Virus record (IMG/VR): IMGVR_UViG_3300030943_000202 | Coordinates: 1 to 20,119 of that record | DNA length: 20,119 nucleotides | Direction: 5' to 3' (one strand) | Source of the DNA: a virus | In this document: piece after piece, positions 3,227 to 17,302 of the stretch | Layout of the letters: the number at the start of each line of letters is the position of its first letter | Numbering within the stretch: position 1 is the stretch's first letter | Notes under the pieces: model-generated | Database searches by the model: none | Seen by the model: the letters and a program-made list of their open reading frames with translations, nothing else | What the model was told of the DNA's origin: nothing | Made by a program: the position numbers and the translations under genes

Positions 3227-3241
3227 ACGTCATCACGACGT
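3227..3241 (-). promoter_or_regulatory. GNRA-like RNA hairpin in the J-like wedge leader
   Basis: The minus strand reads ACGTC-GTGAT-GACGT, a 5-bp stem with a 5-base loop (one base longer than in the sheath leader). It lies immediately before the AGAGAGGA ribosome site of the gene at 3214. UC and GA flanks can add two pairs. Confidence 0.68.
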
Positions 3242-3270
3242 TGATTTACTGTCACGATACAAGCAAAAGC

Positions 3271-3657
3271 TTAAACCGTCAAGGGAACTTGCACAATTCC
3301 CGGCGATTGATAATCGAAGAAGGGAATATACAATATCTGAACGTCCGCTTCACCGCGCCGCTGGTTTATCTTTATCGCTGCCTGACTGGTTACAACTCGC
3401 CGGTCACGTGAGCCGTTCGTTCCGGTCGACACTTCACGGTTCCGTTGCGCTATCCATGCGGCAATATCATATTTCATGTTTACCTCGAGGGATAAACCAC
3501 CTGCGGTATTTTCATATCCGGGAACTCCTGCGCCGAATTGTCGATTATAGAATAAAGACCGTTTTGCCTGCATTATTCCTTGCACGAGGTCGGATTCTAT
3601 TTCCTTTCTTGAGTCAACTTGTCCGTAGAAAAAGAAGTAATCGCCGTCGAGATTCAT
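3271..3657 (-). CDS. Baseplate wedge protein, gp25/gpW-like
   Basis: With start ATG 3657 the protein has 128 residues. I prefer this to the TTG at 3663 because GGGAGG (3664-3669) is correctly spaced only for the ATG. The gp25-type pattern is clear: the N-terminus with QVDSRKEIESDLVQGIMQAK, a basic aromatic turn (SLFYNRQFGAGVPGYEN), the helix NMKYDIAAWIAQRN, a DRRVVTSQAAIKINQR strand segment, and a final QILYIPFFDYQ strand. In T4, gp25 helps assemble the wedge and triggers sheath contraction. It is followed by the J-like wedge gene, the usual order. Confidence 0.75.
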   Translation of the reverse strand: MNLDGDYFFFYGQVDSRKEIESDLVQGIMQAKRSLFYNRQFGAGVPGYENTAGGLSLEVNMKYDIAAWIAQRNREVSTGTNGSRDRRVVTSQAAIKINQRRGEADVQILYIPFFDYQSPGIVQVPLTV

Positions 3658-3659
3658 TT

Positions 3660-4325
3660 TCAACCTCCCGTCTTTATGGTTGTAGTTGCTGACGTTGACA
3701 TATCAAGAACAATTGGCGGAACTGTCCCTACTCCTGGACCAGAAGGCGTTCCTGGAGCCGTGCAATTATGAGTATGCCCTGTCTGCGCAAGCGTTATCGC
3801 GTTCAGTATAGACGTTTTGAAATTATTCATTTCGGTTTTTAGCTCGTCGTGCGTTGCGAACTTCTTTCCATTTCCGTTCAACTCAATAGCGTCGCATGTT
3901 ACGATTATCTTTGCCGGTCCTGTTATCGACAGTTCTTTCGATTCATCATCATACACGATAACGGTCACGCTGTCATCAAAAAGTACTTTTGTTTCAGGCC
4001 CCGTATAACTTCCCGGCGTTGATCCTTCAATCGCTGATGTTCTTGAACGATAACGCGGTCGCGTCATATTTCCAGCAATGAAATAAACCACTACCCAATC
4101 ATCGACTTTAGGAACGATGCAACCACGTCCAAAGTATTCAGGGTCTACCCATGGCGATTCAGTCGGGAGCATCCAGCCAAGTTCCGGTATGGATATTCTC
4201 ACTCGACCTTTTTTCAGTTCATCGTTTGTATCGAGTACCTTGCCTTCGTACTCTTTCACGTATCGCGTTTCGTCCGCGATTATTTGAAGTATTTCCCCGT
4301 ATTCGTCGTTTCGTCTATTGCTCAT
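3660..4325 (-). CDS. Baseplate central spike (gpV/gp5-like) protein
   Basis: The protein has 221 residues. Residues 25-95 form an OB-fold region (YEGKVLDTNDELKKGRVRIS, WVDPEYFGRGCIVPKV, DWVVVYFIAGNMTRPRYR) of the gpV type. Residues 112-150 have short alternating strands (VTVIVYDDESKELSITG, KIIVTCDAIELNGNG) suited to a trimeric beta-helix spike. A helix (157-178) precedes a C-terminal segment with TGHTHNCTAPG (His184, His186) and a Gly/Pro-rich tail. His-x-His tips bind metal in some spikes, but here the motif is followed by about 35 more residues. The protein would pierce the outer host layer. ATGA overlap joins it to the hub gene. Confidence 0.8.
   Translation of the reverse strand: MSNRRNDEYGEILQIIADETRYVKEYEGKVLDTNDELKKGRVRISIPELGWMLPTESPWVDPEYFGRGCIVPKVDDWVVVYFIAGNMTRPRYRSRTSAIEGSTPGSYTGPETKVLFDDSVTVIVYDDESKELSITGPAKIIVTCDAIELNGNGKKFATHDELKTEMNNFKTSILNAITLAQTGHTHNCTAPGTPSGPGVGTVPPIVLDMSTSATTTIKTGG
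3664..3669 (-). promoter_or_regulatory. Ribosome binding site that decides the gp25-like start
   Basis: GGGAGG abuts the TTG at 3663-3661 with no spacing, but sits 6 bases before ATG 3657-3655. It therefore supports the ATG as the true start. Confidence 0.75.
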
Positions 4326-5518
4326 ACCTTTTCACCTGTCGGACTGAATGCGTAAGCGTCAGAAATAGAAACGTCGGTAAAATATCCGGCAGTTGTCAAA
4401 TTGTGTTCTGACTTTCTAATCCACCACGTTCTGTCACTTGCACCTATTCGAGAAGGGAAACCCGTTCCGAACGTAGCTATCATTGCCGCTGTCACGTTAG
4501 GATCTCCCATGAGTTTCGCGTCAACGGTTAAGCCAGAACCTTGCGGCGCAGTTGTCGTTGTATCGGCAATGAAGTATTGTTTCACTTGTTCAAACGTTTG
4601 CCTTGAAAGAAAATCAGCCAATAGACTTGCCTTTGATGTTAAATCAGGTTGTTGATTAAACGCTTTTTCTACGGCTTTTTCGTCAAGCCTCCAGTATGTA
4701 ACAGTTTCATCCTTGACGTTATATGTCATCATCTGTACTTTTCCGTCGGATTCATAAACTTGCACACCTTGACCCGTCGCCGAATCCATCGAATGATCTT
4801 GCCATTCATAACTCAAGACGTTCGCCTTGTTTGACAATATCGCTTCGTAAGCATCGCCATATTCAAGATGAGTTGAAGTTTCACCCGTCATGAGTTTCAC
4901 AAAGTTAGACGTTTTCAATTTCGCATAATCGACGAAACAAGCTATTTGATTTCCTTGTTTATCACGTCCGATACGAAAAGCCGCGCGCCATTCATCAGCA
5001 TATTTCACAAGGAATCTAAAGTCAGATTCATTTTGACATACCTTAGTGCCGGAAGTAATCGCTTCACTGCCACGCGCGAAATTGATTTCAGGATTTAATA
5101 CGCCACAACGGCGCATAGCATCGGCTACAACGTCCGCCTTCGTACCCGTTTCGTACCATTTCACCATTTCACTACCGCGAGATTGAAGCGCCATGAATGA
5201 GCAGTTAAACGTGATACGCCCGCCGCCATCGCCACCGCCGGAAGGTGAGTTGACCATGACTTCGATAGGACTACGTGAAGCCGCTGTAGGTTGCCCCATT
5301 CGAGTTCCCCACGAGATTTTAAGTTTCACGCCAGGACGCAAAATGTATGAATAGATATTGTTTCGGTCAAGAAGTTGAAGCGTGCCTGAATCCATCTTTG
5401 CCATTTCTTCCGTGACATTGAGACTCATAACGTCTTCGGTTTTCACCAAGTCTGTTTTAACGTCCGATGATTCAACCTTGAACCATGAACCGTCATGATT
5501 ATAAAGTTCAAGGCTCAT
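4322..5518 (-). CDS. Baseplate hub protein (gp27/gpD-like)
   Basis: The protein has 398 residues. After an N-terminal beta region (LELYNHDGSWFKVESSDV, MAKMDSGTLQLLDRN) and a Gly-rich loop at 92-100 (SGGGDGGGR), it shows the phage late-control D signature. That signature is a KADVVADAMRRCGVLN helix, then QNESDFRFLVKYADEWRAAF and the strands IACFVDYAKL. The hub trimer sits at the bottom of the tube and holds the spike. Its ATG overlaps the previous stop (ATGA) with a GAGG site; its stop overlaps the spike gene (ATGA). The hub-then-spike order is standard. No lysozyme or peptidase domain is visible. The identity is secure by motif plus position. Confidence 0.82.
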   Translation of the reverse strand: MSLELYNHDGSWFKVESSDVKTDLVKTEDVMSLNVTEEMAKMDSGTLQLLDRNNIYSYILRPGVKLKISWGTRMGQPTAASRSPIEVMVNSPSGGGDGGGRITFNCSFMALQSRGSEMVKWYETGTKADVVADAMRRCGVLNPEINFARGSEAITSGTKVCQNESDFRFLVKYADEWRAAFRIGRDKQGNQIACFVDYAKLKTSNFVKLMTGETSTHLEYGDAYEAILSNKANVLSYEWQDHSMDSATGQGVQVYESDGKVQMMTYNVKDETVTYWRLDEKAVEKAFNQQPDLTSKASLLADFLSRQTFEQVKQYFIADTTTTAPQGSGLTVDAKLMGDPNVTAAMIATFGTGFPSRIGASDRTWWIRKSEHNLTTAGYFTDVSISDAYAFSPTGEKV

Positions 5519-5790
5519 GTCGGCACCCTCAGTGTTCGCAATTTACCAAGGTCAAAATGAGCGTCAACGAGTTCAACTATGTTTTCATCAAAAATCTTGT
5601 ATGCGCTCGATTCACTTCCCGCGCCGTAAATTGCGTCACGTGAAGCGATTTCGTCCAAAGACGATGAATTATCGCATTCGACTTTCGTGAAAGACGTTGC
5701 CGTTGCCGTGACGGGTAATATCTCTTTTATTGAAACGGTATTTCCGTCTGCATCAGTGAAGGAAATGTTTTCTGCGTTATTGTATCTCAA
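5515..5790 (-). CDS. Small baseplate protein (91 aa)
   Basis: This ORF starts with TTG (5790-5788) in a TTGA overlap, with GGAGGG at 5799-5804 (8-base spacing), so the TTG start is well supported. The sequence opens with a strand pair (ISFTDADGNTVSIKEILP) and ends with helices and a proline-closed strand (SAYKIFDENIVELVDAHFDL, then GKLRTLRVPT). It is acidic, without membrane segment or catalytic motif. Similar small proteins lie between the hub adaptor and hub in other myophages, where they often form part of the inner baseplate. The exact role is unknown; alternatives include a gpX-like hub adaptor. Confidence 0.55.
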   Translation of the reverse strand: MRYNNAENISFTDADGNTVSIKEILPVTATATSFTKVECDNSSSLDEIASRDAIYGAGSESSAYKIFDENIVELVDAHFDLGKLRTLRVPT

Positions 5791-6365
5791 AACGGATTCC
5801 CTCCAAAAGTTTTTTGCGCAATGGCGAATAGCGATTCGATGCCGCCAAGAAGAGCCGCGACATTTCTAAACTGTTCTTCAACCGCATACAATGGATCTGT
5901 TTCATCAAGAGCGAGCTCAATATCGACGACAGAATGCTGTGGAATGCCGATAGCATTTACCATATTAGCGGTATGCTGAAAATCGCACTTTGTCACATAA
6001 TAGACTTGCGGAATACTTCCCGTACCCCACGAATAAAGGACTTTCGGATTCGCAGAGAATTGTCCGCGTTGTGCAGCTTTCCCGAGAAAGCCTTGCGCCT
6101 GATTTCGAAGAAGTTCAAACTGTTTCAATAGCATCATGTCGCCATCAACTGCGTTACGTCTACATATCGGAAGTGAGAAGCTGATTTTTCTATTCCCATT
6201 TCCACCCGTTGATATAGGCTGAAAGTTACGTCCAGGAATAGGCGTTTCGGTAATGACGACGGCCTTACTGTCCTTGATTGTTCCTTCCGGAATCGTCGCG
6301 CTCGTAATGAGTTGCTTGTTATAAAGGTCGTACATGTACCACGGAAGAGATGATGCAAAGTTCAA
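5787..6365 (-). CDS. Baseplate hub adaptor, CIS-tube/LysM-type tail protein
   Basis: The 192-residue gene starts with TTG (6365-6363) immediately after the tape-measure TAG, with GGAGGG at 6373-6378 (7-base spacing). Key segments are ETPIPGRNFQPISTGGNGNR, KISFSLPICRRNAVDGD, a helix MMLLKQFELLRNQ, then ANPKVLYSWGTGSIPQVYYV and VDIELALDETDPLY. The P-x-V-L-Y-S-W-G strand, followed by a second strand and the L-x-E ending, matches the tube-initiator or LysM-associated protein of contractile injection systems, which sits between hub and tube. The C-terminal helix (160-188) has no recognisable LysM repeat. The family match is from pattern memory; the hub-adjacent role is supported by gene order. Confidence 0.6.
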   Translation of the reverse strand: MNFASSLPWYMYDLYNKQLITSATIPEGTIKDSKAVVITETPIPGRNFQPISTGGNGNRKISFSLPICRRNAVDGDMMLLKQFELLRNQAQGFLGKAAQRGQFSANPKVLYSWGTGSIPQVYYVTKCDFQHTANMVNAIGIPQHSVVDIELALDETDPLYAVEEQFRNVAALLGGIESLFAIAQKTFGGNPF

Positions 6366-7808
6366 CTATCTACCCTCCGCAAGTCTGGCATTTGATACGT
6401 TGTTTCTGAAAGAATACGCGAGTCCAGAACCGAAGTTACGACCAGCTTGTTCAGCATCGCCTTCAGTTACGGAAATATAGAATGGGCCGATGTTTACCGG
6501 CATGGTTTCGGTTTTCTTTTTCGTGTAGCTTGCAAAATCTTTAGCGGCGAATATGTTATCATCTGGCGATGTTTCATGTACTTGACCGCCTTTCGTAATG
6601 ATAACGTCATTATGTTTCGTTCCTGACAGATTCTTTTCCCAGTTATCGCCTACATTTCCGATTGCACCGAGATATGGTGCCGCGTAATCTTTAGCCGAAC
6701 CGGTCAATGTGCTAAACTGTTTATCTGCACGCCCTTGCCAGCTTGTAAATAACCCTTGTATTTTCCCAAACTCTTCAAGTGAACCCTTGAAGTCACCGGC
6801 AAGAAACTTTGCAACGCCTTTAGCCATCTGCAAAAGCATACCAAAACCAGAAACAAGCTCGTCAACTAACCCGACTACAAGAGTTAGTGCCATAGTTAAG
6901 GTAGAACCAAGAACCGTACCAATGAAACTGAATGCACCCCGTATTCCTTCGGAGTCATCAAAACCTAAAACCTTCAATAATTGATTGAACGATTCAACAA
7001 GCGTATCGATCGGTGTCATAAGATTGCGAACTGCTGGCAAAAATCCTTCCGTAAATCCTTTTACTGCGTTCTCGATAAAGTTTGCAAGTAAATGAAAAGT
7101 CTCTTTCAGTTTATCAATAATAGTCCAAAGACTCGCGCCTTGTTCATTTGCAGTCGTCCATGCTTTCACAAGGTCGAGAAAAAACTTGACAATCGTTGCA
7201 CCCATGTCGATAATCCACTCGAACGCGGGCTTGAAGTCTGTCACTAATTGTTTCGCGAGCATACCCATAAATATGATGACGGCAGATATCTTAAACGATA
7301 ACACGTTTAAAAACTCATCGAATGATTTGAAGTTCGTATTGAACGCCTTCTGAAATGCTTCACCTACGGTCTTCACGAGTGACTTGAAAACTTCCCAAAG
7401 TGTTTTTGCGACGACGACAACAGTGCGGAAAATGTTCGCGACGGTCGCGCCCCATTTCACGAACTGCGCGCGATTATCACGAACCCAGTCAAGCATTTTC
7501 TGCAAGAGCGGCATAACCTGTTGACGTAATGGCCATAAGAGATTTTTGAGGAATATATCTTTTGCAAGACCGAACGCTTGACCGACTTCGGGCATTTCTT
7601 TGAGAACTGCTCCAGCCGTTTTGAACGCAGCGATTAAACCGCCTACTTTCAAAATGAGACCGTTTACTGATTTATTGACTGCGCCCGTAATCGTTGAACC
7701 GAACTTTTTCGCGTTGCCTTCGATCCGGCCCATACCTTCGCCGATTTTGTTTACGCCCGCGAGAAAAGGGGAGACGTCAAAGTTGAATACATTTTCATTC
7801 GCTGCCAT
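6366..7808 (-). CDS. Tape measure protein
   Basis: This 480-residue protein is long, helical and hydrophobic in the middle (for example TVVVVAKTLWEVFKSLV and SAVIIFMGMLAKQLV). That is typical of the tape measure that sets tail length and is ejected with the DNA. Residues 400-425 carry a C-terminal motif common in tape measures (DVIITKGGQVHETSPDDNIF, then AAKDF). The N-terminus starts NVFNFDVSPFLAGVNKIGE and resembles tape-measure openings. The length is short for the class, which by the usual 1.5 angstrom per residue rule implies a tail of roughly 70 nm. ATG has a GGAGGG site (spacing about 7) and overlaps the end of the frameshifted chaperone by 14 bases. It is followed by baseplate genes, as expected. 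Confidence 0.85.
   Translation of the reverse strand: MAANENVFNFDVSPFLAGVNKIGEGMGRIEGNAKKFGSTITGAVNKSVNGLILKVGGLIAAFKTAGAVLKEMPEVGQAFGLAKDIFLKNLLWPLRQQVMPLLQKMLDWVRDNRAQFVKWGATVANIFRTVVVVAKTLWEVFKSLVKTVGEAFQKAFNTNFKSFDEFLNVLSFKISAVIIFMGMLAKQLVTDFKPAFEWIIDMGATIVKFFLDLVKAWTTANEQGASLWTIIDKLKETFHLLANFIENAVKGFTEGFLPAVRNLMTPIDTLVESFNQLLKVLGFDDSEGIRGAFSFIGTVLGSTLTMALTLVVGLVDELVSGFGMLLQMAKGVAKFLAGDFKGSLEEFGKIQGLFTSWQGRADKQFSTLTGSAKDYAAPYLGAIGNVGDNWEKNLSGTKHNDVIITKGGQVHETSPDDNIFAAKDFASYTKKKTETMPVNIGPFYISVTEGDAEQAGRNFGSGLAYSFRNNVSNARLAEGR
6373..6378 (-). promoter_or_regulatory. Ribosome binding site supporting the TTG start of the hub adaptor gene
   Basis: GGAGGG lies 7 bases before the TTG at 6365-6363, which directly follows the tape-measure TAG. 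The next in-frame ATG is at codon 11 and has no ribosome site. Confidence 0.7.
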
Positions 7809-8813
7809 TGTCTGTTCCCTCCTGTTTTTCTTCGGCTACTTTCCAAGCGAGAGTATATTGATCCCAGGGTAAGCGTTCAAGCCATTCTGGAGATAAACGC
7901 GCCGCTTTCGCAAGGCGCACACATTCTACGGTCAGCATCGAACGATTAAAATCCAGTGCGTTTATTGCCCACGGGAGGGACGGTCGCGGCGAGGGGCCTT
8001 CTTGCTTAGACCGGAGGCGAAAAAACCATTCAAGTCAATCGGCGCGTCAAAGTGCGTTTTGCACTTCATGCAGATTCTTTCACGTGTTACGTTGATCGAA
8101 TAGCGTTTCATTTCCTCGTTAAGCGTTGCCATGTCTTCTGCGTCCATCTTTTCAAAGAATCTCGTTCCGAATGCAGATTTCCATGTAGCATCGCACGGTT
8201 TCCCGTTGATAGTCCTGAGTGCAGAACTATATAGCGCAAACTGCATACGCATTTCAGCATCGGGGCATTTCTGATGAGCGCGGATACACTGGTCGAGTGT
8301 CGGCCAATCCATGACGAACGATTCAACCGTTTCGATCACTTCGCTTGAATCACTCCGTTTCAATTCAACTGGATATTCAAGAGTAATAGCAATGCCCGCG
8401 CGCGGATCATCAAGTGTTTCAATGTCAAGCGCATACAGATGATCGGTATCATCAAACTCTATACCGTCCGTTTCTCCGCGTTCAGCTTTTACGATACTTC
8501 CGCATTTCGGGCACGCATACTCACCGGATATCGAATCGTCTTTTTTCGTTTCTGCCATTCCATAGCACGCAAGGGAGAACGCTGATTCAAACGGCATGAA
8601 GCGAAGAGCGCGCCTAATTTCTGCGCACTCGATTGTGCCACTGTCTCCGGAAAGATTTTCCGTGATACCGACGTTCCATTCGAGAATAGCAGAATAAGGA
8701 TTCCCCCGTTCTGCTTCTTCCGTAGTCTTTGCGATACCGAGCGAGTCAGCCCGTCCCACTTTCACTTCCGTGTATACCGAGCCGTCAAGCTCCACTCCAA
8801 CCGATAATTTCAT
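7795..8813 (-). CDS. Tail assembly chaperone, -1 frameshift product (about 339 aa)
   Basis: At 8025-8019 the ribosome can slip back by one base on U UUU UUC after Phe264-Phe265. The -1 frame is then open for 74 residues, from 8019 to a TGA at 7795-7797, fourteen bases inside the tape-measure gene. The extension begins RLRSKQEGPSPRPSLPW and contains LAKAARLSPEWLERLPWDQY and TLAWKVAEEKQ. That is a compact helical segment of the sort seen in lambda GT-like and other chaperone extensions. It fills the 153 bases between the chaperone stop and the tape-measure start. An in-frame ATG inside it has no ribosome site, so a separate gene is less likely. The longer form would bind the tape measure and recruit tube subunits. 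Confidence 0.72.
7962..8813 (-). CDS. Tail assembly chaperone, unshifted form, with split zinc ribbon
   Basis: The 283-residue protein lies between the tube and tape-measure genes, the place of tail assembly chaperones (lambda G, P2 E). It contains two CxxC pairs far apart: Cys101/Cys104 in YACPKCGSIVKAE and Cys248/Cys251 in RICMKCKTHFDAP. These could together bind zinc, with a mostly helical stretch (160-240) between them. T4 gp26-type baseplate/chaperone families also carry such cysteines, so a relation to them is the main alternative. Residues 262-266 (NGFFA) are encoded over a U UUU UUC slippery site. The normal frame then ends after 18 more residues. ATG follows an AGAGGAA site; hairpin 8830-8843 lies just before. 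Chaperone role: moderately secure. Confidence 0.7.
   Translation of the reverse strand: MKLSVGVELDGSVYTEVKVGRADSLGIAKTTEEAERGNPYSAILEWNVGITENLSGDSGTIECAEIRRALRFMPFESAFSLACYGMAETKKDDSISGEYACPKCGSIVKAERGETDGIEFDDTDHLYALDIETLDDPRAGIAITLEYPVELKRSDSSEVIETVESFVMDWPTLDQCIRAHQKCPDAEMRMQFALYSSALRTINGKPCDATWKSAFGTRFFEKMDAEDMATLNEEMKRYSINVTRERICMKCKTHFDAPIDLNGFFASGLSKKAPRRDRPSRGQ
8019..8025 (-). other. Programmed -1 frameshift slippery heptamer
   Basis: The minus-strand mRNA reads U UUU UUC in the zero frame (codons GGU UUU UUC), a canonical X-XXY-YYZ site. Both tRNAs keep good pairing after slipping. Five bases downstream a CGGTC arm (8009-8013) can pair with GACCG (7981-7985), giving a possible stimulatory stem with a 23-base loop. 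The open -1 frame after it supports real use. Confidence 0.75.
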
Positions 8814-8829
8814 TTCAATCAGTTCCTCT

Positions 8830-8843
8830 ATGTCTCACGACAT
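8830..8843 (-). promoter_or_regulatory. GNRA-loop RNA hairpin in the tail-chaperone leader
   Basis: The minus strand reads ATGTC-GTGA-GACAT, a 5-bp stem with the same GUGA loop as the other leader hairpins. One base pair differs from the sheath copy by a compensatory change (C-G to U-A). It lies just upstream of the AGAGGAA ribosome site of the gene starting at 8813. UC and GA flanks can add two pairs after an A-A mismatch. Confidence 0.68.
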
Positions 8844-8858
8844 TGATTTATTGTTTTT

Positions 8859-9272: not shown

Positions 9273-9296
9273 CGTTTTTTCTCCTCATCTTTAATA

Positions 9297-9330: not shown

Positions 9331-11154
9331 TTACTGGACCTTGTAAACTACTCCGACGCCGATTTTGATCGAGCCCGCGGGCGCGGGAAACGAGAAATAC
9401 ACGTCAATGTCACGATTACCTGCTTGTAGGAATCCAACAGGGTTATTCGAAGCATCGGCGATAACTTCATATCCGTCCGATTCATCCGACATTGTACCTT
9501 TTCCGTCGTCAAGTTCGTATTGCCCGAAAGTCTCGCCTTCCTTGACGTTTCCAGTGCTTCCACGTTTCCACATTTTGTGCATAAACTGAAGCATCGCCAT
9601 TCTGTCTTCACGAACGCGTCCAATACTGTTCGGCGTATTCTCGGAAGTCTGCAAGGAATCAACGCCGGAAACCTTGATATAGTTCCGCATGAACACGACG
9701 TTTGCATACCGAAACTCGACTCCCGTTGAAGGCGTAAACAAGTTACGAACGCAATAACCAGAGCCTGAAAGAGATTGAATCACGTTGACGCCTGCGCTTG
9801 CAATATCGGTTCGGTCAAGATCATCAGGGGCGGTATAGCCGTATACCTGATATACACCCTTAAGCGGGAACGTAATCTGCGCGGGAATCTGATGAATACC
9901 GAGGGACGCAAAACCGGCAACCATCCATCCCATGAGGTGACCGCAATTCGGGACCGCACGGCGCGGAGCAGTCGGAGAGTCAGCGAACGGGTCAGAAACA
10001 CCCAACCAGTTATGCGCGTACACTGCGTCAACTTCATCGGACCGCTGATAGAGCTGTCCGGATGCAATTACGGCTGATTTCGTCGAGAGCGCGAACGCTC
10101 CGCAAATTACAGCGATGGGATTATCTTTCGTTGTGCGATTCTGACAATACGTTTCGAGTGCGCTCTGATAATCAGTCACGGCAGTTTCGACGTTCGCAAT
10201 CATACGAACAGGGATATTATTGAACAGTGCATAGACGGTATTCCAGTCGGCAACGGTCGCGGGCTGAGTTCCGTCAGTTCCTCCCGTAAGATATGTCACC
10301 GTCGTAACGTCGGCAGGATAAATCTTATCGGCAGTCGGCAATGTACCGGGGACAAGTTTCGTTGCTTCCATCCAACTGGAAGAGGCGAACACGTTGACAA
10401 TGTACATATTCGGATTGTTCGCGTTGAACGTTACCCATGTTTTACCGATACCCTGATCGACTTCCGAAACGACGCCGGAAGTATCTTTACGATAGACGTT
10501 TATTTTGAGTGCGAGAAGTCCAGCGGTATAATCTGCGGCAAGTCCGGTTCCGGCATAATCAGTATCGGTCCATGTAACGGTTTTCGCGGCTTCATCGACT
10601 GCGGTAATGAAATGATATTCTGCGAATCCCGTTTTGAAGATATGCAGAACGTCACCAACGGAAAAACCGACAACAGATGCAAGCGTCATCGTGCGTGCCG
10701 TCGCGCCGGTACCAGTCGGAAGAGTCGTCACGGAAGATATAAATGCATCACCGCGAGTAATCTTGTATCCGGTCCTGTTTGCCGATACGCCATACTCATC
10801 TTCGGTCTGATACGCTGCGCTCAATTTGAGAGTGGCAAGAGGTGATGACTGGCTATCATTGATTGAAGCACTTGCGACAACCGCGCCGGTTCCCGGGTAA
10901 GACGCAACGTACAGTGTTCCGTCCTGTCCGCGAAGGTTTGCAAAGAAACCGTTGATTGCGTCCCATCCATACGCGCCCGCATTCGTCTGAGCGCCAAGTA
11001 CCTGCTGAGCTTCCTGAGTATTGCGGAAAGGGAACGCCTTGTTATATTTCCGGTCGCATTTTGCGACAAGTCCCGCGATACCAAAGTCGGCAGCGGTTAC
11101 GGATTTCTCCGATTTAGTCGGGAGGTTATCCCCGTATACACCTAAACGCCTCAT
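9331..11154 (-). CDS. Contractile tail sheath protein
   Basis: The protein has 607 residues, within the size range of long sheath proteins. The N-terminus has sheath-type features (AADFGIAGLVAKCDRKYNKA, then NTQEAQQVLGAQTNAG and GWDAINGFFANLRGQDGTLYV). A long strand-rich insertion (about 95-290) follows. The conserved C-terminal region runs from about 480 to 607 and includes VVFMRNYIKVSGVDSLQT, IGRVREDRMAMLQFMHKMW and the last strands IDVYFSFPAPAGSIKIGVG. Sheath subunits form the helical sleeve that shortens and drives the tube into the host. ATG follows an AAAGGA site (7 bases), with the hairpin 11168-11181 just before it. The tube gene is next, as in other myophages. Confidence is high from order plus C-terminal pattern. 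Confidence 0.88.
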   Translation of the reverse strand: MRRLGVYGDNLPTKSEKSVTAADFGIAGLVAKCDRKYNKAFPFRNTQEAQQVLGAQTNAGAYGWDAINGFFANLRGQDGTLYVASYPGTGAVVASASINDSQSSPLATLKLSAAYQTEDEYGVSANRTGYKITRGDAFISSVTTLPTGTGATARTMTLASVVGFSVGDVLHIFKTGFAEYHFITAVDEAAKTVTWTDTDYAGTGLAADYTAGLLALKINVYRKDTSGVVSEVDQGIGKTWVTFNANNPNMYIVNVFASSSWMEATKLVPGTLPTADKIYPADVTTVTYLTGGTDGTQPATVADWNTVYALFNNIPVRMIANVETAVTDYQSALETYCQNRTTKDNPIAVICGAFALSTKSAVIASGQLYQRSDEVDAVYAHNWLGVSDPFADSPTAPRRAVPNCGHLMGWMVAGFASLGIHQIPAQITFPLKGVYQVYGYTAPDDLDRTDIASAGVNVIQSLSGSGYCVRNLFTPSTGVEFRYANVVFMRNYIKVSGVDSLQTSENTPNSIGRVREDRMAMLQFMHKMWKRGSTGNVKEGETFGQYELDDGKGTMSDESDGYEVIADASNNPVGFLQAGNRDIDVYFSFPAPAGSIKIGVGVVYKVQ

Positions 11155-11167
11155 AGACTGTTCCTTT

Positions 11168-11181
11168 ACGTCTCACGACGT
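11168..11181 (-). promoter_or_regulatory. GNRA-loop RNA hairpin in the sheath leader
   Basis: The minus strand reads ACGTC-GTGA-GACGT: a perfect 5-bp stem closed by a GUGA (GNRA-type) tetraloop. It lies just upstream of the AAAGGA ribosome site of the sheath gene. After one A-A mismatch the flanks CUU and AAG can also pair, taking in part of the ribosome site. The same element occurs in front of three other genes in this window. Its function is unknown; translation control, mRNA processing or mRNA stability are possible. Confidence 0.7.
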
Positions 11182-11202
11182 TAAGATATAGATTTCAACC
11201 GG

Positions 11203-11427: not shown

Positions 11428-12533
11428 GTGTCCTCCCTCACCTCGACGTCAAATGTATATGACGCACGAGGAACTATATCGTAATCTTCGACCGGTTCAT
11501 TATCGATTGCCGGTTCTGACCATTCAAACCAAACTTTTCTACCGTTGACCCATGCGGTCGATGTTCCAATAAATGCACGTGCGGCTCTTGCGGCGTCCGC
11601 TTGTAATTCAGGAGAGCGCGCAACGATTTCTAATTGCACTTTCCATGTCTGAATTACACCGTCACGTTTCTGATAAGTGCCGAGCGGGCCGACGCACTCA
11701 TTTCTGATTTCTGCGCGCGAGTTTCTTGTCGCTGGCGTCGGGCTCGCATACCACACTACAGTCCCGGGCAACGTATCTTCACGATTATAGTAACCGACTT
11801 CTACCGGACTTGTTATGTAGACTGTAGCATTGGTCGCGTCATTTAGCAAGGCGTTTCCGTCATACGTTGACATAAAAGATATTTGATTGTCTTGTATGTT
11901 ATCGACCTGATGCGTTTCACCGTTAAAAAGCAATACCATGTTGCGCTCAAGAAAGGACCAATCAGTTTCTATCGTGACAACCTCGTCCCCTGCTTTCGCG
12001 TTCACTGTTCCCATTGCGCGATTGATTCCGATGCGCGTACGTTCCTTTTCAATTCCCGTTTTGACCGCCGTAAGAATGTCAGCCGGTAATGATTCTTTAA
12101 CTGCACGAAAATCTGACAGAATTAGGTAATCAGCTTTTGAATGATTGACTACGATCTTTAATTTCGTAACAGCCGAATAACCGTCGATAGGAATTGAGGT
12201 ATCAGTTAATTGCTTGAATGTTGGAATGCTGAAGTCTTGAGCGGTTGCAACGGATACGGCGTAAAGTGCGTCGCTATCGCGTTCAACTTGTCCGGACTCA
12301 AGGCGTAAACTCGCAATGTTGATAACGAGTTCCTGAAAAGCGGAAACGTCAACGGACGCTGGTAAAGTCAATGTTGCAGTCTTTCCAGAACTGCCGGAAG
12401 GAATGCGGATAGCAATAGCAGACGTGTGATAGTTCGCTATGTATTCATCGAAGTATTGAAGTTCTACCGTAAGGCCGGTATCAGCAGTCCAGCCGGTAAG
12501 TGAGTCAAGCGCTGATATAAGTAACTCACTCAT
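11364..12533 (-). CDS. Large three-part neck/tail protein; C-terminal part resembles a tail terminator
   Basis: The 389 residues divide into three apparent regions. Residues 1-145 look like a beta-sandwich of carbohydrate- or galactose-binding type (LTGWTADTGLTVELQYFDEY, AIAIRIPSGSSGKTATLTLP, then a KLKIVVNHSKADYLILSDF closing). Residues 150-245 begin with a helix (ADILTAVKTGIEKERTRIG) and then strands resembling an OB/SH3-like unit (AGDEVVTIETDW, NGETHQVDNIQ). Residues 255-380 contain WKVQLEIVARSPELQADAA, a helix, then VNGRKVWFEWSEP and a last beta strand SYTFDVEVRED, like proteins that cap the tail tube. Its position before the sheath gene fits a tail terminator. The domain reading is by eye and the function is inferred. 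Confidence 0.5.
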   Translation of the reverse strand: MSELLISALDSLTGWTADTGLTVELQYFDEYIANYHTSAIAIRIPSGSSGKTATLTLPASVDVSAFQELVINIASLRLESGQVERDSDALYAVSVATAQDFSIPTFKQLTDTSIPIDGYSAVTKLKIVVNHSKADYLILSDFRAVKESLPADILTAVKTGIEKERTRIGINRAMGTVNAKAGDEVVTIETDWSFLERNMVLLFNGETHQVDNIQDNQISFMSTYDGNALLNDATNATVYITSPVEVGYYNREDTLPGTVVWYASPTPATRNSRAEIRNECVGPLGTYQKRDGVIQTWKVQLEIVARSPELQADAARAARAFIGTSTAWVNGRKVWFEWSEPAIDNEPVEDYDIVPRASYTFDVEVREDTWKLLKKNLGNPVLTVSPLTP

Positions 12534-13113
12534 TTTGCGCCTCTGCTTTTCTTGCGCGTTCAGTTATTTTCTTGATAAGCTCTTGCCGTCCTGTTGTCAT
12601 GTACTGACTCACGGCTTGCTTAAACTCGATAGCCGGGTCATTCGCTTTCAATCGACGCAAGAGAACGTCATACGACTTCTGCATTGCAGGACGCGCGGGA
12701 ATACGAAATGTTTTACCGTTGCGCGTAATCGTTGCGCCATATTCATGGACAATGAAAAGTGCATTGAGCGGTAACTTCGATTCGTGATGCTTTCCTTTTA
12801 TCATATGTACTGTGTATCCTCGTTTCGTTTTGAACTTCCGCATTCCTTTGATATACGTCTTTGAACCTTCAAGGCCAAGTCCGTACAAAGGAGAATCAGG
12901 ATAACGATAGCCGAGACGTGCTTTCTTCGCGCGTGTATCCGGTTTCAGAGGTATGAGTGAAAAAGTGTTATTGATAAGGCCGTTTCTCCAGATTGCAATA
13001 AGGTCGTCCGCGTCTCGTGAACGTTGCATATCTGCTACGCCTTCAGCTATCTTGGGAATTTTGCGTATTCTTTGCCGTGTTGCGTTCCAGTTTGTCGAAA
13101 AGGTTATAGGCAT
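12526..13113 (-). CDS. HK97 gp10-like neck/tail completion protein
   Basis: The 195-residue protein has ATG at 13113 behind a GAGGA site (spacing about 8). The key signature is in residues 118-148: NALFIVHEYGATITRNGK, then a FRIPARPAMQKSYDVLL run. This matches the h-E-(F/Y)-G ... I-P-A-R-P pattern of HK97 gp10/virion morphogenesis proteins. The protein is basic, with a helical N-terminus (ATRQRIRKIPKIAEGVADM) and a helical C-terminus (residues 158-195). Family members join head and tail or complete the tail. Its 3' end overlaps the following gene by 8 bases (ATGAGTGA), implying coupled translation. Confidence 0.75.
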   Translation of the reverse strand: MPITFSTNWNATRQRIRKIPKIAEGVADMQRSRDADDLIAIWRNGLINNTFSLIPLKPDTRAKKARLGYRYPDSPLYGLGLEGSKTYIKGMRKFKTKRGYTVHMIKGKHHESKLPLNALFIVHEYGATITRNGKTFRIPARPAMQKSYDVLLRRLKANDPAIEFKQAVSQYMTTGRQELIKKITERARKAEAQNE

Positions 13114-13116
13114 TTG

Positions 13117-13587
13117 TCAATTCCTCTTCAAACCGAAAGTAATATAAACCGGAAACTTTCCGACTCTCATTGAAAGACCTTTGTCTGCAATCTTGAACTC
13201 TTGCCCGTCAAGAAGAACCGTGTCGCGTATCATGTCGATAGCGGAAAAATCCTTGCCGAGAGTGTCGTCTGAAATATAACCCGCGTCAATCCATGACTGA
13301 ATTGGTGTATAAATGAGTACGTCAACTTCTGCACGAACTCCGGCTTTTTCAAGTTTACGAGCATCTGGTTGCCTTTCGACAGGAAGTGCCCATGTCTCGA
13401 ATGTCGGCGTGATAGATTTCTTTTTTATCGTCCCGAGTGTATCACGTGATACGTCGCTTTCTTTACGCGGTCGGAAAGTCACGGGCGTTCCATATTGCAT
13501 TGCTGCGTCAAGTGCATCCTGGCGGTATCCTTGCGCTTCGAGATAAACCGTGCAATCAGTCGAAACGCCACTTGAGCCCATGTTCAC
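13117..13587 (-). CDS. Putative head-closure (stopper-like) protein
   Basis: The frame begins at GTG 13587 (GTGA overlap with the connector stop), but ATG at 13581 is two codons later and could be the real start; neither has a strong ribosome site (GGTG upstream). The protein has 154-156 residues. After a short helix (LEAQGYRQDALDAAMQYG) it is mainly beta: PVTFRPRKESDVSRDTLG, TFETWALPVERQPDARKLEK, EVDVLIYTPIQSWID, DTVLLDGQEFKIADKG and GKFPVYITFGLKRN. The small beta-barrel character, with a final VYITFGLKR strand, resembles head-tail joining/stopper proteins that follow the adaptor gene. The gene order adaptor, this gene, gp10-like protein supports the call. It is moderately secure only. Confidence 0.58.
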   Translation of the reverse strand: MNMGSSGVSTDCTVYLEAQGYRQDALDAAMQYGTPVTFRPRKESDVSRDTLGTIKKKSITPTFETWALPVERQPDARKLEKAGVRAEVDVLIYTPIQSWIDAGYISDDTLGKDFSAIDMIRDTVLLDGQEFKIADKGLSMRVGKFPVYITFGLKRN

Positions 13588-14435
13588 GATGCACCGCCCG
13601 TCATATACTTTCTGATAAGTGCATTCGCAGTTAAGGCAAGGTCACGCCTGATATGAGTATACTTTCCTGCATCTCCATAGTCGCGCGAGATTCCCGGAAG
13701 ACCCTGATTACCGCCGCCCGTCTTGTTTGCAATGTGAGCAAGAACGACGTCAGCCGTTAAGCATTTAATCGCTTCGGCAACGTCTCCCGGGCAATTTGCA
13801 TACCCGTATTGATAGGTAATGCGAAGATTGCGGTCACCACGATAGAAAATAGGGATATAACTTGACTCGTTAAAGTTAGCCTTTGCTTTCAAGATCCCTT
13901 CATCGGCAATCACCTGAATAGCCGTCGGCGTTAAATAGTAGAGATTGGTATCAACATTTGTATAGCTGATTTGTAAAAGTTGCACGATAGGACGGCGACG
14001 AAGAATCATAATAGAACTTCCCGTACCATCGTAGAACTCTGTCACGGTAGAAAGTCCGTCGAAAGTTTGCCGAGTTTTTGACGTAATCCACGGCATAATC
14101 CTGTTCGTGATACGATCTTGAATCCATGTGTCAGAAACGACACAAAAGTATGAAACAAGAATAGCGCTAGCGGTACCGCTAAGGGTCGTAGGCACGTTCA
14201 ATGTGATCTGTCCGTCACTGTCTACCACGTCAACCGATTTGATCGACGCAAGGGCCGGTATGCCTGTGCCAAATACGTTCATTCCTACGGTCAATTTTCT
14301 GGTATCGATATGCGTAATGATTGGAGAAGGTGATACCCACGTGCCGACAAGAGACTGATTATTTTGTGTATCCATTCCATAGCCTTCGAGTAAGGCGCGG
14401 ATGTCGGACGGTTCGGGGATTCCTGCATCGTTCAA
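13584..14435 (-). CDS. Head-tail connector (gp6-like adaptor) with an inserted beta domain
   Basis: The protein has 283 residues. It starts with TTG (14435-14433), supported by a GGGAGG site at 14441-14446 with 5-base spacing; the nearby ATG is out of frame. Residues 8-21 (PEPSDIRALLEGYG) and 100-126 (SDTWIQDRITNRIMPWI) form the helical start typical of connector adaptors. They are followed by the strand pair TEFYDGTGSSIMILRRRPIVQL, then RNLRITYQYGYANCPGDVAEAI and a helical tail (218-278). Such proteins form the ring under the portal. Residues about 28-97 do not belong to the core: they form a small strand-rich unit with LTVGMNVFGTGIPALASI and GQITLNVPTTLSGTAS, resembling a widespread GM-x-V-x-G-x-GIP repeat domain. 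Connector identity is good; the insert is read from its sequence pattern. Confidence 0.72.
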   Translation of the reverse strand: MNDAGIPEPSDIRALLEGYGMDTQNNQSLVGTWVSPSPIITHIDTRKLTVGMNVFGTGIPALASIKSVDVVDSDGQITLNVPTTLSGTASAILVSYFCVVSDTWIQDRITNRIMPWITSKTRQTFDGLSTVTEFYDGTGSSIMILRRRPIVQLLQISYTNVDTNLYYLTPTAIQVIADEGILKAKANFNESSYIPIFYRGDRNLRITYQYGYANCPGDVAEAIKCLTADVVLAHIANKTGGGNQGLPGISRDYGDAGKYTHIRRDLALTANALIRKYMTGGAS

Positions 14436-14912
14436 TTATTCCTCCCAAAAAAGAAGGTCTACAGTTATATCAGACGCCGCATCAGGCGTAATAGTGACAA
14501 GGTAATTTGTGTTCGGTTTCAAAATAGAGATTGCGTCGTTTTCAACATTTCGGGTTGTGCCATTTACTCCGAGTATTTGTGTGCTGATTATGGTTCCTGC
14601 GCTTGTAACGGTCGGAGCAGAAAAGCGCTTAAACGCCATAGTGTCGTCAGCGAAACTCCGGTTTCTATTTAACACGGGGCTTGCAGTTCCATCTGCGGAA
14701 CAAACGGGATTCTCTGCTATGGTTATAGTTGTGCGAGTTGACGCGGTAATAAGAGCTTTGAAAAAAACAGGTTTTGATCCAACCTTCCACTGTGTAACTG
14801 ACGGAGTTGCAAGGGCGGCGGCTGCTTTGGAAATGAAAAAAATCTTTCCCATCGTAATGAGGTGAGAAATAAAATCCATCGGAACGGAATAGCCGGAATC
14901 ATTCGTTATCAT
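14436..14912 (-). CDS. Beta-rich hypothetical virion protein (158 aa)
   Basis: ATG at 14912 has a GAGG ribosome site 6 bases upstream, just past the terminator. Residues 14-50 look like an N-terminal helix and linker (MDFISHLITMGKIFFISKAAAALATPS). Residues 50-158 are strand-rich: FFKALITASTRTTITIAENP, then FSAPTVTSAGTIISTQILG, and a closing LKPNTNYLVTITPDAAS followed by DLLFWEE. The L-x-PNT-x-Y closing with a terminal W/Y-E-E resembles small jelly-roll-like virion proteins seen beside capsid and connector genes in other phages. That resemblance is from memory and not proven. It may be a head decoration, head fibre or neck component. The next gene's TTG follows its TAA immediately. Confidence 0.5.
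   Translation of the reverse strand: MITNDSGYSVPMDFISHLITMGKIFFISKAAAALATPSVTQWKVGSKPVFFKALITASTRTTITIAENPVCSADGTASPVLNRNRSFADDTMAFKRFSAPTVTSAGTIISTQILGVNGTTRNVENDAISILKPNTNYLVTITPDAASDITVDLLFWEE
14441..14446 (-). promoter_or_regulatory. Ribosome binding site supporting the TTG start of the connector gene
   Basis: GGGAGG lies 5 bases before the TTG at 14435-14433, spanning the end of the preceding gene. No ATG in the right frame is nearby. Confidence 0.7.
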
Positions 14913-14926
14913 CGTACACCTCGATT

Positions 14927-14989
14927 AAAAAAACGCCGTCCCGTCCTAATTCATGGAGGAGTGGGCCATGAATAGGCGGGCAGGACGGC
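14927..14989 (-). terminator. Intrinsic terminator at the end of the capsid block
   Basis: On the minus strand a long imperfect stem is formed by 14989-14966 (GCCGTCCTGCCCGCC then TATTCATGG) and 14956-14935 (CCATGAATTAGGACGG then GACGGC). The loop is about 9 bases, and seven U follow directly (14933-14927). Both ends of the stem pair perfectly (CCATGAAT/ATTCATGG and GCCGTCC/GGACGGC type pairing), with bulges in the middle. This is the classic shape of a rho-independent terminator. It lies between the candidate decoration gene and the connector block, and the next ribosome site (GAGG) begins a few bases after the U tract. It therefore probably attenuates rather than ends transcription, giving more head mRNA than neck and tail mRNA. 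Confidence 0.85.
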
Positions 14990-15001
14990 AGGAAAGAAGG
15001 A

Positions 15002-15466
15002 CTAAATCTTGCGAACCCAGAGAATAACCGTGCGAGCGGCGGCAGTTGCGCCACCTGCATCGACAAGGTTACACTTCGCGGATGCATACGCGGTCGGGTT
15101 CGATTTCGGGTAGAACTTGTTCTGCGCAACGTCGATAGTTCCCGCGCGAGTCACTGCTTTCGCGACGGCTGATATAATCGCGTCGGTCACGGCAGTCGTG
15201 TTGTTCTGTATCTGGACGGTCGAAGAAGTCACGGCGGTATCCGTGCGAACGGTTACGTCAAGAATCTCGAAGTCGAAAAGAAGCGACGGGTCTGCGGGAA
15301 GATTTGCGGCAACGATTGCACCGACGGTACCGGCAGGAAATGCCGTTACAATCTGAAACGTTCCGTAGTTGTCGAGTTCGCGAATACGTTCGCCAAGTCT
15401 CGCATTCTGATCGGCAGGCTGACACGCGCTCATTGCGCTTGCTTCACCGGCTGAAAACTTATTCAT
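15002..15466 (-). CDS. Candidate head decoration/stabilisation protein
   Basis: The 154-residue protein begins with ATG in an ATGA overlap and has a GAGG ribosome site 7 bases upstream. The N-terminal 30 residues are polar (QPADQNARLGERIREL). The rest is an Ala/Thr/Val-rich beta protein (residues 36-154) with alternating strands such as FDFEILDVTVRTD, STVQIQNNTTAV and AARTVILWVRKI. It has no catalytic motif, signal peptide or membrane segment. Small beta-sandwich proteins encoded just after the MCP are often decoration or cement proteins, so that is the leading inference. A short head fibre or other minor head component is the main alternative. It is the last gene before the terminator at 14927-14989. 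Confidence 0.5.
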   Translation of the reverse strand: MNKFSAGEASAMSACQPADQNARLGERIRELDNYGTFQIVTAFPAGTVGAIVAANLPADPSLLFDFEILDVTVRTDTAVTSSTVQIQNNTTAVTDAIISAVAKAVTRAGTIDVAQNKFYPKSNPTAYASAKCNLVDAGGATAAARTVILWVRKI

Positions 15467-15798
15467 ATAAATACCTCATTCATCCACCGCCAACCTTGAC
15501 GGCATAATTCGGCGCGGACGGCTTCAACTTGCGTCTCTACTCGTCCGCTTATTACTTCAACCGATTCCCCTGCGATTTCCATCTTGCATTCAGGCTTGAA
15601 GCTATCAGTGCAATCAGGATGTTGTAAATAAAACCATGGAGCGTCTGCTTTCGGTTTTACTTTCGCAACTCGTGGAGGCGGTAACTCGGGAAGAGCTAAA
15701 GTCTCTACGGGTTTTGTTTCTACAACTTGAACGGGAAGATCGAGCTTGCTTTTCAGCTTGCCCGATGCCTCCACGTCCTTTCGCGAGAGGACGGACAC
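15463..15798 (-). CDS. Hypothetical protein (111 aa) directly after, and in frame with, the capsid gene
   Basis: The ORF begins with GTG one codon after the MCP stop (TAA GCC GTG), in the same reading frame, and ends in an ATGA overlap with the next gene. I see no Shine-Dalgarno match in the 20 bases before the GTG, so it would depend on termination-reinitiation from the MCP or on stop-codon readthrough. The first 50 residues are Pro/Lys/Val-rich and probably extended (PVETLALPELPPPRVAKVKPK). Residues 54-111 look like a small alpha/beta domain (APWFYLQHPDC, then VEAVRAELCRQGWRWMNEVFI). I do not recognise the family. A head accessory is plausible from position. The start is uncertain; the in-frame GTG at codon 9 is no better supported. 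Confidence 0.55.
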   Translation of the reverse strand: MSVLSRKDVEASGKLKSKLDLPVQVVETKPVETLALPELPPPRVAKVKPKADAPWFYLQHPDCTDSFKPECKMEIAGESVEVISGRVETQVEAVRAELCRQGWRWMNEVFI

Positions 15799-15801
15799 GG
15801 C

Positions 15802-17235
15802 TTACGCGCGCCGGACGTTCTTGAGCATATAGGACGTTTTCTCGAACGAGTCGATAAGCGTACCATAGGTCTTAATCATGAACGGATTGTTGTCATCCGT
15901 TTTCGCGAGCGGTTCCATAGTGACGAGGCCACCGAAACGAGAACCGGCAGAGTTCGTATACGCGAACTTGCCGAGCCCCTGAATCTTGTCCAGGTCCCAG
16001 AGAATGACGGTTTCCGGAGTGATTCCACCGGTTGCCACGACAGGAACGTCACTTCCCATTTTGGTAGTGACAGGAGCGGCAGCGGAAGGAATCGTGGCAA
16101 CAAGACCTGAAGGAGCGGACACGGTCGGATTGATCGCGGTCGGAGTAGTCGAGAACGTCACGGTAGTCGTGCGAGCGTTCGGAGTTCCGACAGCATCGTA
16201 CTGGTTAGCCGGAATGATCGAAACAAGAGTTTCGGTTCCAGTCGTGAGGCTTGCGTAAATCTTGTACAGACGCGCATCAGGTACATCGGCCCACGAGAGG
16301 GTTACGACAGAAGATCCACCAGTCGGGGTGACAGTGCGCTCGGCGTCGGCAATCGATTCTCCGTTGAGTCCAACATAGGAAACCTGGAAGAAATACTGCT
16401 GTGCGGCAACGGTTCCACCGGAATCAGTTTTAGCTGCGGTAACGGTTCCCATCTGGACGTCATTACGCAGCGAGCTGGTAGTGATGATCGGGATATCGCG
16501 GTACGCCTGAAGTCTCCAGCCGCCGTCGATTTCAACCTGAGTCATGCCAGAACCGACAACGCCCTGATTGAGACGTACGTTAGTCAGAAGCCGTGAATAC
16601 TTCGAGAGCATTTCCGGCGTCATGAGGAACGCTTTACGATGGTTAGCACCCTGAAGACGGATGTTTGCATCGATCATGTTATCGAGATCCGAAAGATCGG
16701 TCGGAACAGTACCGCCCTTAGTTCCGGCAAAACGGTTGGTCTGAATAAACGTATCGAGTCCAGGGAACATGTACGGGTCAGCCTGATCGTTTCCGTAGTG
16801 AATCTGGAACACGAGGTTGTAGGCATGCGCCTGAACGTGGTTTTCCATTTCAAGGGAAAGGGCGTCCACGTAGCCTTTCGATGCGTCCATAAGAAAGTTA
16901 GTTACCGCGCCTTTCGCACGGGTAACTTTCAACACACGGCCAGTACGTTCGTACGTACTCTGTCCGGTCGGAGTTACGGCACCTTCACCGATTGCACCCT
17001 GTCCAGACGGAAGAGTGAGCAAGCGATTGAACTCATGATACCGCATAGCAGCGTTGAACGGATCGAGCACGGCAATTTCCGGCACGAGGCGAACGACGGT
17101 AGTGGTAATGAGTTTCTCAAGGTTCTGGGGAACAAGCGCCTGAGCTGAGCCAGCGGCGGCGGTCAGTGCTTTCTGAACAGTGGAGCTGATCGCTCCCTGC
17201 ATATACGAAGCATTGGGGTTATTGATACCAGTCAT
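15802..17235 (-). CDS. Major capsid protein, HK97 fold, with inserted Ig/FN3-like domain
   Basis: The protein has 477 residues. The N-terminal arm (about 1-35) is followed by HK97-type features: residues 40-60 (TTTVVRLVPEIAVLDPF), an E-loop-like region near 70-115, a long spine helix region around 118-148 (DALSLEMENHVQAHAYN), and A-domain strands with MTPEMLSKYSRLL (205-217) and YRDIPIITTSSLRN (245-258). The fold resumes at 405-477 with ETVILWDLDKIQGLGKFAY and MEPLAKTDDNNPFMIKTYGTL. Between about 262 and 372 sits a beta-rich domain of fibronectin III/Ig type (QYFFQVSYVGLNGES, then TLSWADVPDARLYKIYAS). A VQKA motif at 20-23 suggests removal of the first 22 residues on maturation. ATG follows an AAAGGA site that sits against a GNRA-loop hairpin. 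This should be the most abundant virion protein. Confidence 0.85.
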   Translation of the reverse strand: MTGINNPNASYMQGAISSTVQKALTAAAGSAQALVPQNLEKLITTTVVRLVPEIAVLDPFNAAMRYHEFNRLLTLPSGQGAIGEGAVTPTGQSTYERTGRVLKVTRAKGAVTNFLMDASKGYVDALSLEMENHVQAHAYNLVFQIHYGNDQADPYMFPGLDTFIQTNRFAGTKGGTVPTDLSDLDNMIDANIRLQGANHRKAFLMTPEMLSKYSRLLTNVRLNQGVVGSGMTQVEIDGGWRLQAYRDIPIITTSSLRNDVQMGTVTAAKTDSGGTVAAQQYFFQVSYVGLNGESIADAERTVTPTGGSSVVTLSWADVPDARLYKIYASLTTGTETLVSIIPANQYDAVGTPNARTTTVTFSTTPTAINPTVSAPSGLVATIPSAAAPVTTKMGSDVPVVATGGITPETVILWDLDKIQGLGKFAYTNSAGSRFGGLVTMEPLAKTDDNNPFMIKTYGTLIDSFEKTSYMLKNVRRA

Positions 17236-17249
17236 AATACTAGTCCTTT

Positions 17250-17264
17250 ACGTCTTCACGACGT
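17250..17264 (-). promoter_or_regulatory. GNRA-like RNA hairpin in the capsid leader
   Basis: The minus strand reads ACGTC-GTGAA-GACGT, a 5-bp stem with a 5-base loop starting GUGA. It is followed after one A by AAAGGA, the capsid ribosome site. The flanks TCTT and AAGG can pair after an A-A mismatch, enclosing most of the site. The flanking bases match the sheath leader almost exactly. Confidence 0.72.
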
Positions 17265-17290
17265 TAAGATTGAAAAAATACGGGCCATAC

Positions 17291-17302
17291 TGTCTCACGA
17301 CA
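17291..17302 (-). promoter_or_regulatory. Second GNRA-loop hairpin further up the capsid leader
   Basis: The minus strand reads TGTC-GTGA-GACA, a 4-bp stem with the same GUGA loop, 26 bases upstream of the first capsid-leader hairpin. GCC and GGC can pair outside an internal loop. It is not next to a ribosome site. The whole leader (17236-17322) holds these two hairpins and no other clear signal. Confidence 0.6.

Follow-up and report, generated by a model that had tools for sequence, protein, structure and literature searches.

What does one small RNA hairpin do when it recurs at the ribosome-binding sites of several virion genes in the same phage? This question is raised by the viral record IMGVR_UViG_3300030943_000202 of IMG/VR, of which we analyzed a stretch of 20,119 nucleotides, referred to here as the window. 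An earlier reading of the letters alone (the original prediction) had described four minus-strand hairpins of the type ACGTC-GTGA-GACGT, each within a few bases of a Shine-Dalgarno (SD) sequence, and had proposed that they are copies of a single dispersed element. All four were found exactly where it had placed them, with the SD sequence directly 3' of every stem and the ATG 12 to 16 nt past the stem:

17246..17268 (core 17250-17264), minus strand: leader hairpin of the major capsid protein (MCP) gene, CTT-A-ACGTC-GTGAA-GACGT-A-AAG; recovered by both covariance models and kept in MCP orthologues
17244..17249, minus strand: SD sequence AAAGGA of the MCP gene, adjoining the stem
11164..11185 (core 11168-11181), minus strand: leader hairpin of the sheath-like gene, CTT-A-ACGTC-GTGA-GACGT-A-AAG; recovered by both covariance models and kept in sheath orthologues
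11162..11167, minus strand: SD sequence AAAGGA of the sheath-like gene, read from the sequence
8826..8847 (core 8830-8843), minus strand: leader hairpin of a gene for a 283-amino-acid (aa) protein, TC-A-ATGTC-GTGA-GACAT-A-GA; recovered by both covariance models
8824..8829, minus strand: SD sequence AGAGGA of the 283-aa gene, read from the sequence
3223..3245 (core 3227-3241), minus strand: leader hairpin of the wedge gene, TC-A-ACGTC-GTGAT-GACGT-A-GA; recovered by both covariance models and kept in two related contigs (L019 and L154)
3219..3226, minus strand: SD sequence AGAGAGGA of the wedge gene, read from the sequence

The analysis confirmed that these four hairpins are one dispersed RNA element, beyond what chance would give. 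Covariance model R2, built from unrelated phages and excluding the window and its kin, recovered the four sites at 30 to 34 bits (E = 3.2e-8, 4e-8, 4e-8, and 4.1e-7), with the next independent window site at 11 bits; model R1 scored the four copies at 31 to 35 bits and the next independent site at 11.5 bits. Across 200 dinucleotide shuffles of the minus strand, an ACGTC stem with a GNRA(N) loop occurred on average 0.005 times per shuffled strand, and in none of them was any stem found twice. The minus-strand genes of the window mostly overlap or abut, and the four copies occupy four of the intergenic gaps. That the recurrence is an artefact of chance or shared ancestry is hardly credible: some copies do lie in related phages, but the shuffles, the independent model, and unrelated leaders that are alike in the hairpin alone speak against it. 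The original prediction also held that the other window genes lack the hairpin. There is indeed no other strong copy, but a related fifth hairpin, P1 (17310-17281), was detected.

The element is a 22-base leader composed of a 5-bp helix (ACGUC/GACGU), a GNRA or GNRAN loop, a 1x1 mismatch, and 1 to 3 covarying lower pairs. It is located 10 to 30 nt from the start codon (mode about 12 to 14), with the SD sequence adjacent or up to ~20 nt farther on. As had been predicted, the stem covaries. Within the window, the ATGTC/GACAT stem of the copy at 8830-8843 carries a compensatory change of a C-G to a U-A pair, and the outer pair at -2/+2 is U-A at the MCP and sheath genes and C-G at the 283-aa and wedge genes; both changes had been noted before, and covariation of the flanks is supported across family representatives. 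In a MAFFT alignment of 46 sequences (A2), the single gap column of which is the fifth loop base, changes on both sides were observed at core pairs 1, 2, and 5 and at -2/+2 and -3/+3. The covariation score of 0.265 compares with 0.089 in shuffles, none of 500 shuffles reached it, and slid controls all remained below 0.11. Pair 4 is changed to C-G in one contig (L077). Of 47 family representatives, 46 have -1/+1 unpaired (40 expected) and 39 have -2/+2 paired (18.5 expected; 0 of 20,000 shuffles), with the pairs at -2/+2 spread over U-A, G-C, and C-G. In the leader sequences, the stem is conserved beyond the requirement for pairing; ACGTC accounts for 57 leader stems versus at most 3 for any other, in a set retrieved mostly with ACGTC patterns. 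The "structure-first" constraint that the original prediction drew from loop length does not hold, given a nearly invariant stem sequence and a loop that is always GNRA plus an optional fifth base.

The nearest relatives of the window are IMG/VR contigs, and its nearest cultured relatives are the Leptospira phages LE3 and LE4 (46% MCP identity). The expectation that the same genes keep the hairpin in relatives was borne out at the MCP, sheath, and wedge orthologues. The MCP-leader hairpin is kept in L004, L005/L006 (GTGAT loop), L007 (GTAAC), and L012 (GAGAT), the sheath-leader hairpin in L004 (GAGAT), L006 (GAGA), and L011 (GTGA), and the wedge-leader hairpin in the two contigs named above. 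Between the 97%-identical sheath genes of the window and L004, the loop is swapped from GTGA to GAGAT. The leader of the 283-aa gene is without the hairpin in L018 (protein 98% identical), L017, L006, and L007. At position 1421 of L018, hairpin and SD sequence (~35 nt; window 8814-8858) are both missing, as though the two had been acquired or lost in one piece. Leaders that keep a ribosome site without any stem, which the original prediction had named as contrary evidence, were found only at this gene in these four contigs and in distant relatives. By this pattern among orthologous leaders, the element is stable at the MCP and sheath genes and gained or lost elsewhere.

The hairpin is not confined to this group. 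An IMG/VR scan with the pattern ACGTCGNRAN{0,1}GACGTARAGGA matched 17 stretches, most of them capsid or sheath leaders and several from phages in which no similarity to the window was detected; when the pattern was relaxed and the distance to AGGA allowed to vary, at least 120 matches were obtained. Most additional copies were retrieved by ACGTC-specific patterns, and the dominance of ACGTC among them is partly by construction. Less biased evidence comes from the orthologous leaders, single-stranded RNA (ssRNA) phage leaders reached through relatives of the RNA-dependent RNA polymerase, copies from model searches, and a control pattern: with an ACGTT stem, one stretch matched, by chance, versus 17 for ACGTC. 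A version with a U-A closing pair and the same SD sequence was rejected for DNA phages, with one chance match only. In the collected set, an SD sequence and an open reading frame lie within 45 nt downstream of 143 of 165 exact hairpins, and leaders of different families have the hairpin in common but not the flanks. Major capsid genes from at least eight unrelated Pfam/PHROG families have the element in front of them; the major head families downstream include SU10_MCP/phrog_212, phrog_1357, Phage_capsid/phrog_10, Phage_capsid_3/phrog_334, phrog_371, P22_CoatProtein/phrog_283, Phage_cap_E, and Gp13-like. The element also precedes two sheath families, including the tail sheath phrog_23, major and minor tail genes (phrog_584 and phrog_290), and genes for a head maturation protease, a virion structural protein, and a scaffold-like protein. 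In one contig (L031), the capsid and tail-gene copies at 2443 and 6200 both have the rare loop GGGA, as if copies within one genome may evolve together.

Copies were also found in ssRNA phages. In the ssRNA phage SRR7976301_9 (L048), ACGTC-GTGAT-GACGT lies between the maturation and coat genes, and 4 of the 13 Steitzviridae examined have the hairpin in the coat leader (L048, L053, L057, and L058), with the L053 variant ACGTT-GTGA-AACGT representing a compensated closing pair. Additional ssRNA-phage copies came from IMG/VR (L069, L084, L091, and L151); the L084 contig encodes RNA_replicase_B, and phage maturation protein matches were obtained on L084, L091, and L151 (weak in the last). Leviviricetes are not known to have a DNA stage. 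Being present in these phages, the element must function as RNA, and a role at the DNA level alone is excluded by these copies. A DNA operator or late promoter motif, palindromic by accident, would fit the palindromic stem and recurrent upstream position, but it is made extremely improbable by copies on contigs that encode RNA replicase and maturation proteins, by variable loop length and GNRA asymmetry, and by RNA-type covariation around the internal mismatch.

Five matches in a genome collection of 84,980 species (L043 the least certain) and seven model matches in 199 Planctomycetota genomes were not convincing as gene leaders; they look like chance, and host chromosomal copies were rejected. 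Rfam (4227 covariance models) gave no match up to E 1 in the window or in positions 5000-6300 of contig L072 (discussed below) and none up to E 0.1 in nine carrier records. By blastn, no convincing copy was detected in the cultured tailed phages of INPHARED; the one convincing record was that of the ssRNA phage L048. We found no earlier description of the element in the open-access literature, and it has apparently not been described before.

In the window, the hairpins precede four genes, one of them with a promoter-like sequence in its leader:

15802..17235, minus strand: MCP (SU10_MCP / phrog_212), from Pfam/PHROGs
9331..11154, minus strand: tail-sheath-like protein, 31% to the LE4 tail protein, with weak matches to Streptomyces phage sheaths
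7962..8813, minus strand: 283-aa protein of unconfirmed function, encoded between a tube-like gene and that for the tape measure
1457..3214, minus strand: baseplate wedge subunit (phrog_219), from PHROGs
3254..3282, minus strand: sigma70-like promoter, by consensus match only, with TTGACG-N17-TATCGT shortly before the wedge hairpin

These family matches support the MCP and wedge identities originally assigned. The sheath assignment is backed by homology to annotated sheaths, although this homology is weak, and the 283-aa product, named a chaperone in the original prediction, could not be confirmed as such, with no PHROGs or Pfam match. The promoter-like sequence is largely preserved in L019. 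A TTGACA hexamer lies a few tens of nucleotides before the start of the window gene at 18162-19118 and is kept across the distant relatives L006, L007, L010, L012, and L013; it may be a promoter.

What, then, could the element do? From comparison of these leaders, we propose, at a probability of roughly 0.55, that it is a cis-acting mRNA leader element for abundant virion proteins, acting at translation initiation and recognized by a host factor. A conserved host component, either the ribosome or a ribosome-associated RNA-binding protein, would recognize the hairpin RNA as shape plus sequence, and recognition would raise or time the synthesis of capsid, sheath, tail-tube, and coat proteins. 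A host factor is suggested because phages with unrelated proteins share the element and ssRNA phages have too few genes for a dedicated regulator. A role at initiation is suggested because the distance from the start codon is that at which a docked 30S subunit would meet the hairpin. The phage-encoded RNA-binding protein considered in the original prediction is unlikely, since the element is common to tailed phages that are unrelated and to ssRNA phages that have about three genes. That the effect is activation and not repression is a weaker inference: many of the genes concerned encode the virion proteins of highest copy number, and the SD sequence is not systematically occluded. When the hairpin was scrambled in silico, SD exposure was 0.48 versus 0.52 (P = 0.10). 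Because scrambling barely alters exposure, selection seems to act on the identity of the hairpin and not on simple masking; general SD masking and SD insulation were rejected for want of a significant in silico effect.

Several observations weigh against this proposal. The element also precedes genes not known as abundant, namely, an 88-aa orphan (C0, 33 loci) and a tail fibre (C3). It is absent from the MCP leaders of the distant relatives LE3/LE4, L008-L010, and L013 and from the coat leaders of 9 of the 13 Steitzviridae, and it is thus not universally needed. In addition, at L072 5634 and in its IMG/VR kin (L073, L075, L082, L130, L131, L137, L164, and L178), the hairpin lies in a near-identical ~300-nt region, shows the same GTGA/GAGAT loop swap, and is not followed by any long open reading frame there. 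This region is possibly a noncoding RNA of a new kind; a tmRNA beside the L072 copy was rejected, as ARAGORN finds no tRNA or tmRNA in L072, L075, or L181. The C0 product (L066, L071, L087, and ~30 more) is signal-peptide-like, and at its loci the element lies behind a tandem AGCC-GUGA-GGCU hairpin. One C0 contig (L104) carries a terminase, an SU10-type portal, and a capsid gene.

The original prediction that an extended stem can cover part of the ribosome site does not hold in general, since the spacing varies. Partial cover would suit a translational operator, at which a host protein on the hairpin blocks 30S loading until a late signal, so that translation of structural genes is delayed or limited. 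The covarying lower stem of the window copies, and of others like them, draws on SD bases (AAG, GAG) much like the T4/RB69 gp43 hairpin (PMC3014915), and the specificity of sequence in stem and loop suggests that a protein is bound there. We nevertheless regard such an operator as unlikely: the SD distance varies, the SD sequence lies outside the stem in many copies, there is no net SD masking in the ensemble, and a repressor site common to competing unrelated phages would be hard to select for. The T4/RB69 gene 43 operator (PMC3014915) is, like the element, a small sequence-specific hairpin that lies upstream of a phage ribosome site and overlaps it in sequence, but it has a different stem and loop and serves a phage-encoded autogenous repressor of one gene in one phage group, whereas the element is found at many genes of unrelated phages. 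An autogenous operator of the gp43 type was rejected, as the downstream genes belong to unrelated families and ssRNA phages share the element.

The operators of MS2, Qbeta, and PP7 are located at the replicase start and bind coat protein. The element resembles these ssRNA phage coat-protein operators in being a short, small-looped hairpin whose short helix has a defect beneath it, and in its place close to a start codon in Leviviricetes; unlike them, it lies before the coat gene and is common to DNA phages. Lambda boxB, of about 15 nt, has a 5-bp stem and a GNRA-like pentaloop. The element resembles it in stem and loop type but differs in its leader rather than nut-site position and in its occurrence in RNA phages, and N protein is not expected; its position at the SD sequence of each gene would argue against boxB/N antitermination. 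Closer to the proposed role at initiation is the rpsO leader, docked on the 30S subunit with help from S1 (PMC3858243), which is likewise structured and beside the SD sequence. In contrast to that leader, the element has no pseudoknot, is far smaller, and has no known r-protein partner.

Alternatively, the hairpin could be an mRNA stabilizer or RNase processing site, protecting the 5' end or directing cleavage just upstream of the gene. The promoter-like site of the wedge leader would place the hairpin at an mRNA 5' end, and copies often occupy intergenic gaps behind terminator-like hairpins. This explanation is unlikely, however, as the element is internal in the genomic RNA of ssRNA phages, a position hard to reconcile with the 5' stabilizer of the original prediction, and a generic stabilizer would not need one stem sequence. 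An intrinsic terminator was rejected for the four window hairpins, which have no U run behind their stems; the only nearby T6 is at the second hairpin of the MCP leader:

17281..17310, minus strand: P1, core TGTC-GTGA-GACA at 17302-17291, with a 3' GTA bulge and a lower stem; weak under R1 (11.5 bits)

The T6 at 17278-17273 follows P1, and an automatic terminator scan of the MCP leader (P1 included) and of the wedge leader found none. Hairpins of this kind also come before MCP copies in unrelated phages. A CTCATGTC-GNRA-GACAGYA hairpin is found ahead of the MCP copy in the window, L005/L006, L012, L064, and L080, and P1-related hairpins lie upstream of copies in L025 and L031 and, at a sheath gene, in L158. 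A T-run often, though not always, comes after the second hairpin. At L109 356-435, three tandem hairpin copies precede a P22-like coat gene.

P1 bears on a further explanation, in which the hairpin imitates helix 93 (H93) of 23S rRNA and recruits, for example, a pseudouridine synthase of the RluB/RluF type near the start codon. The core ACGTCGTGAGAC (ACGUC-GUGA-GAC) is identical to E. coli 23S 2590-2601 in helix 93, and ACGTC is among only 4 of 1024 GUGA-loop stems with a 12-nt rRNA match, tied for best. GACA is kept in most P1 copies inspected; P1 copies often keep an A2602-like base, and P1 of L025 is identical over 16 nt, including the A2602 base. Furthermore, the obligatory mismatch is located where the RluB target U2605 would be. 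RluB and RluF bind the helix 93 stem-loop, contacting A2590-U2596 and not G2597-A2602 (PMC3919597); because these contacts stop at U2596, they would fit a 5' strand that does not vary and a loop in which an additional base is tolerated. Many Actinomycetota have an identical helix 93. On the other hand, the likeness was noticed after the fact (P about 0.4%), the main hairpin (P2) has no A2602 bulge and usually no U at the 2605 position (+1 is mostly A), the loops GAGAU and GGGA depart from H93, and H93 differs in the Planctomycetota sampled. As a known structure, helix 93 (PMC3919597) thus shares 12 nt (ACGUCGUGAGAC) with the element and, with some P1 copies, the A2602-like base and the following GU; the element differs in being an mRNA leader, in its unbulged P2, and in its 4- or 5-nt loop. 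Recruitment of such an enzyme by imitation of rRNA is very doubtful. The wider notion that DNA and RNA phages acquired independently, or exchange, a helix-93-like hairpin of the peptidyl-transferase center, drawing a conserved host rRNA-binding factor to capsid mRNAs in a pan-viral imitation of rRNA that serves translation control, would be distinctly unlikely. Mimicry of 16S helix 36 and h40 was rejected, as the matches are short and random hairpins do at least as well as full P1.

Control by hairpins in the leader, close to the ribosome site, is already known. It would be unusual for a single hairpin of specific sequence to be common to unrelated double-stranded DNA tailed phages and to ssRNA phages, for the most part ahead of virion genes, and such sharing would imply a conserved host factor on which many viruses converge. 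With its 22 nt, the element would offer a handle by which this host factor could be found, capsid genes predicted in viral contigs that lack annotation, and expression tuned, and it allows a test of whether phages imitate rRNA so as to gain translation.

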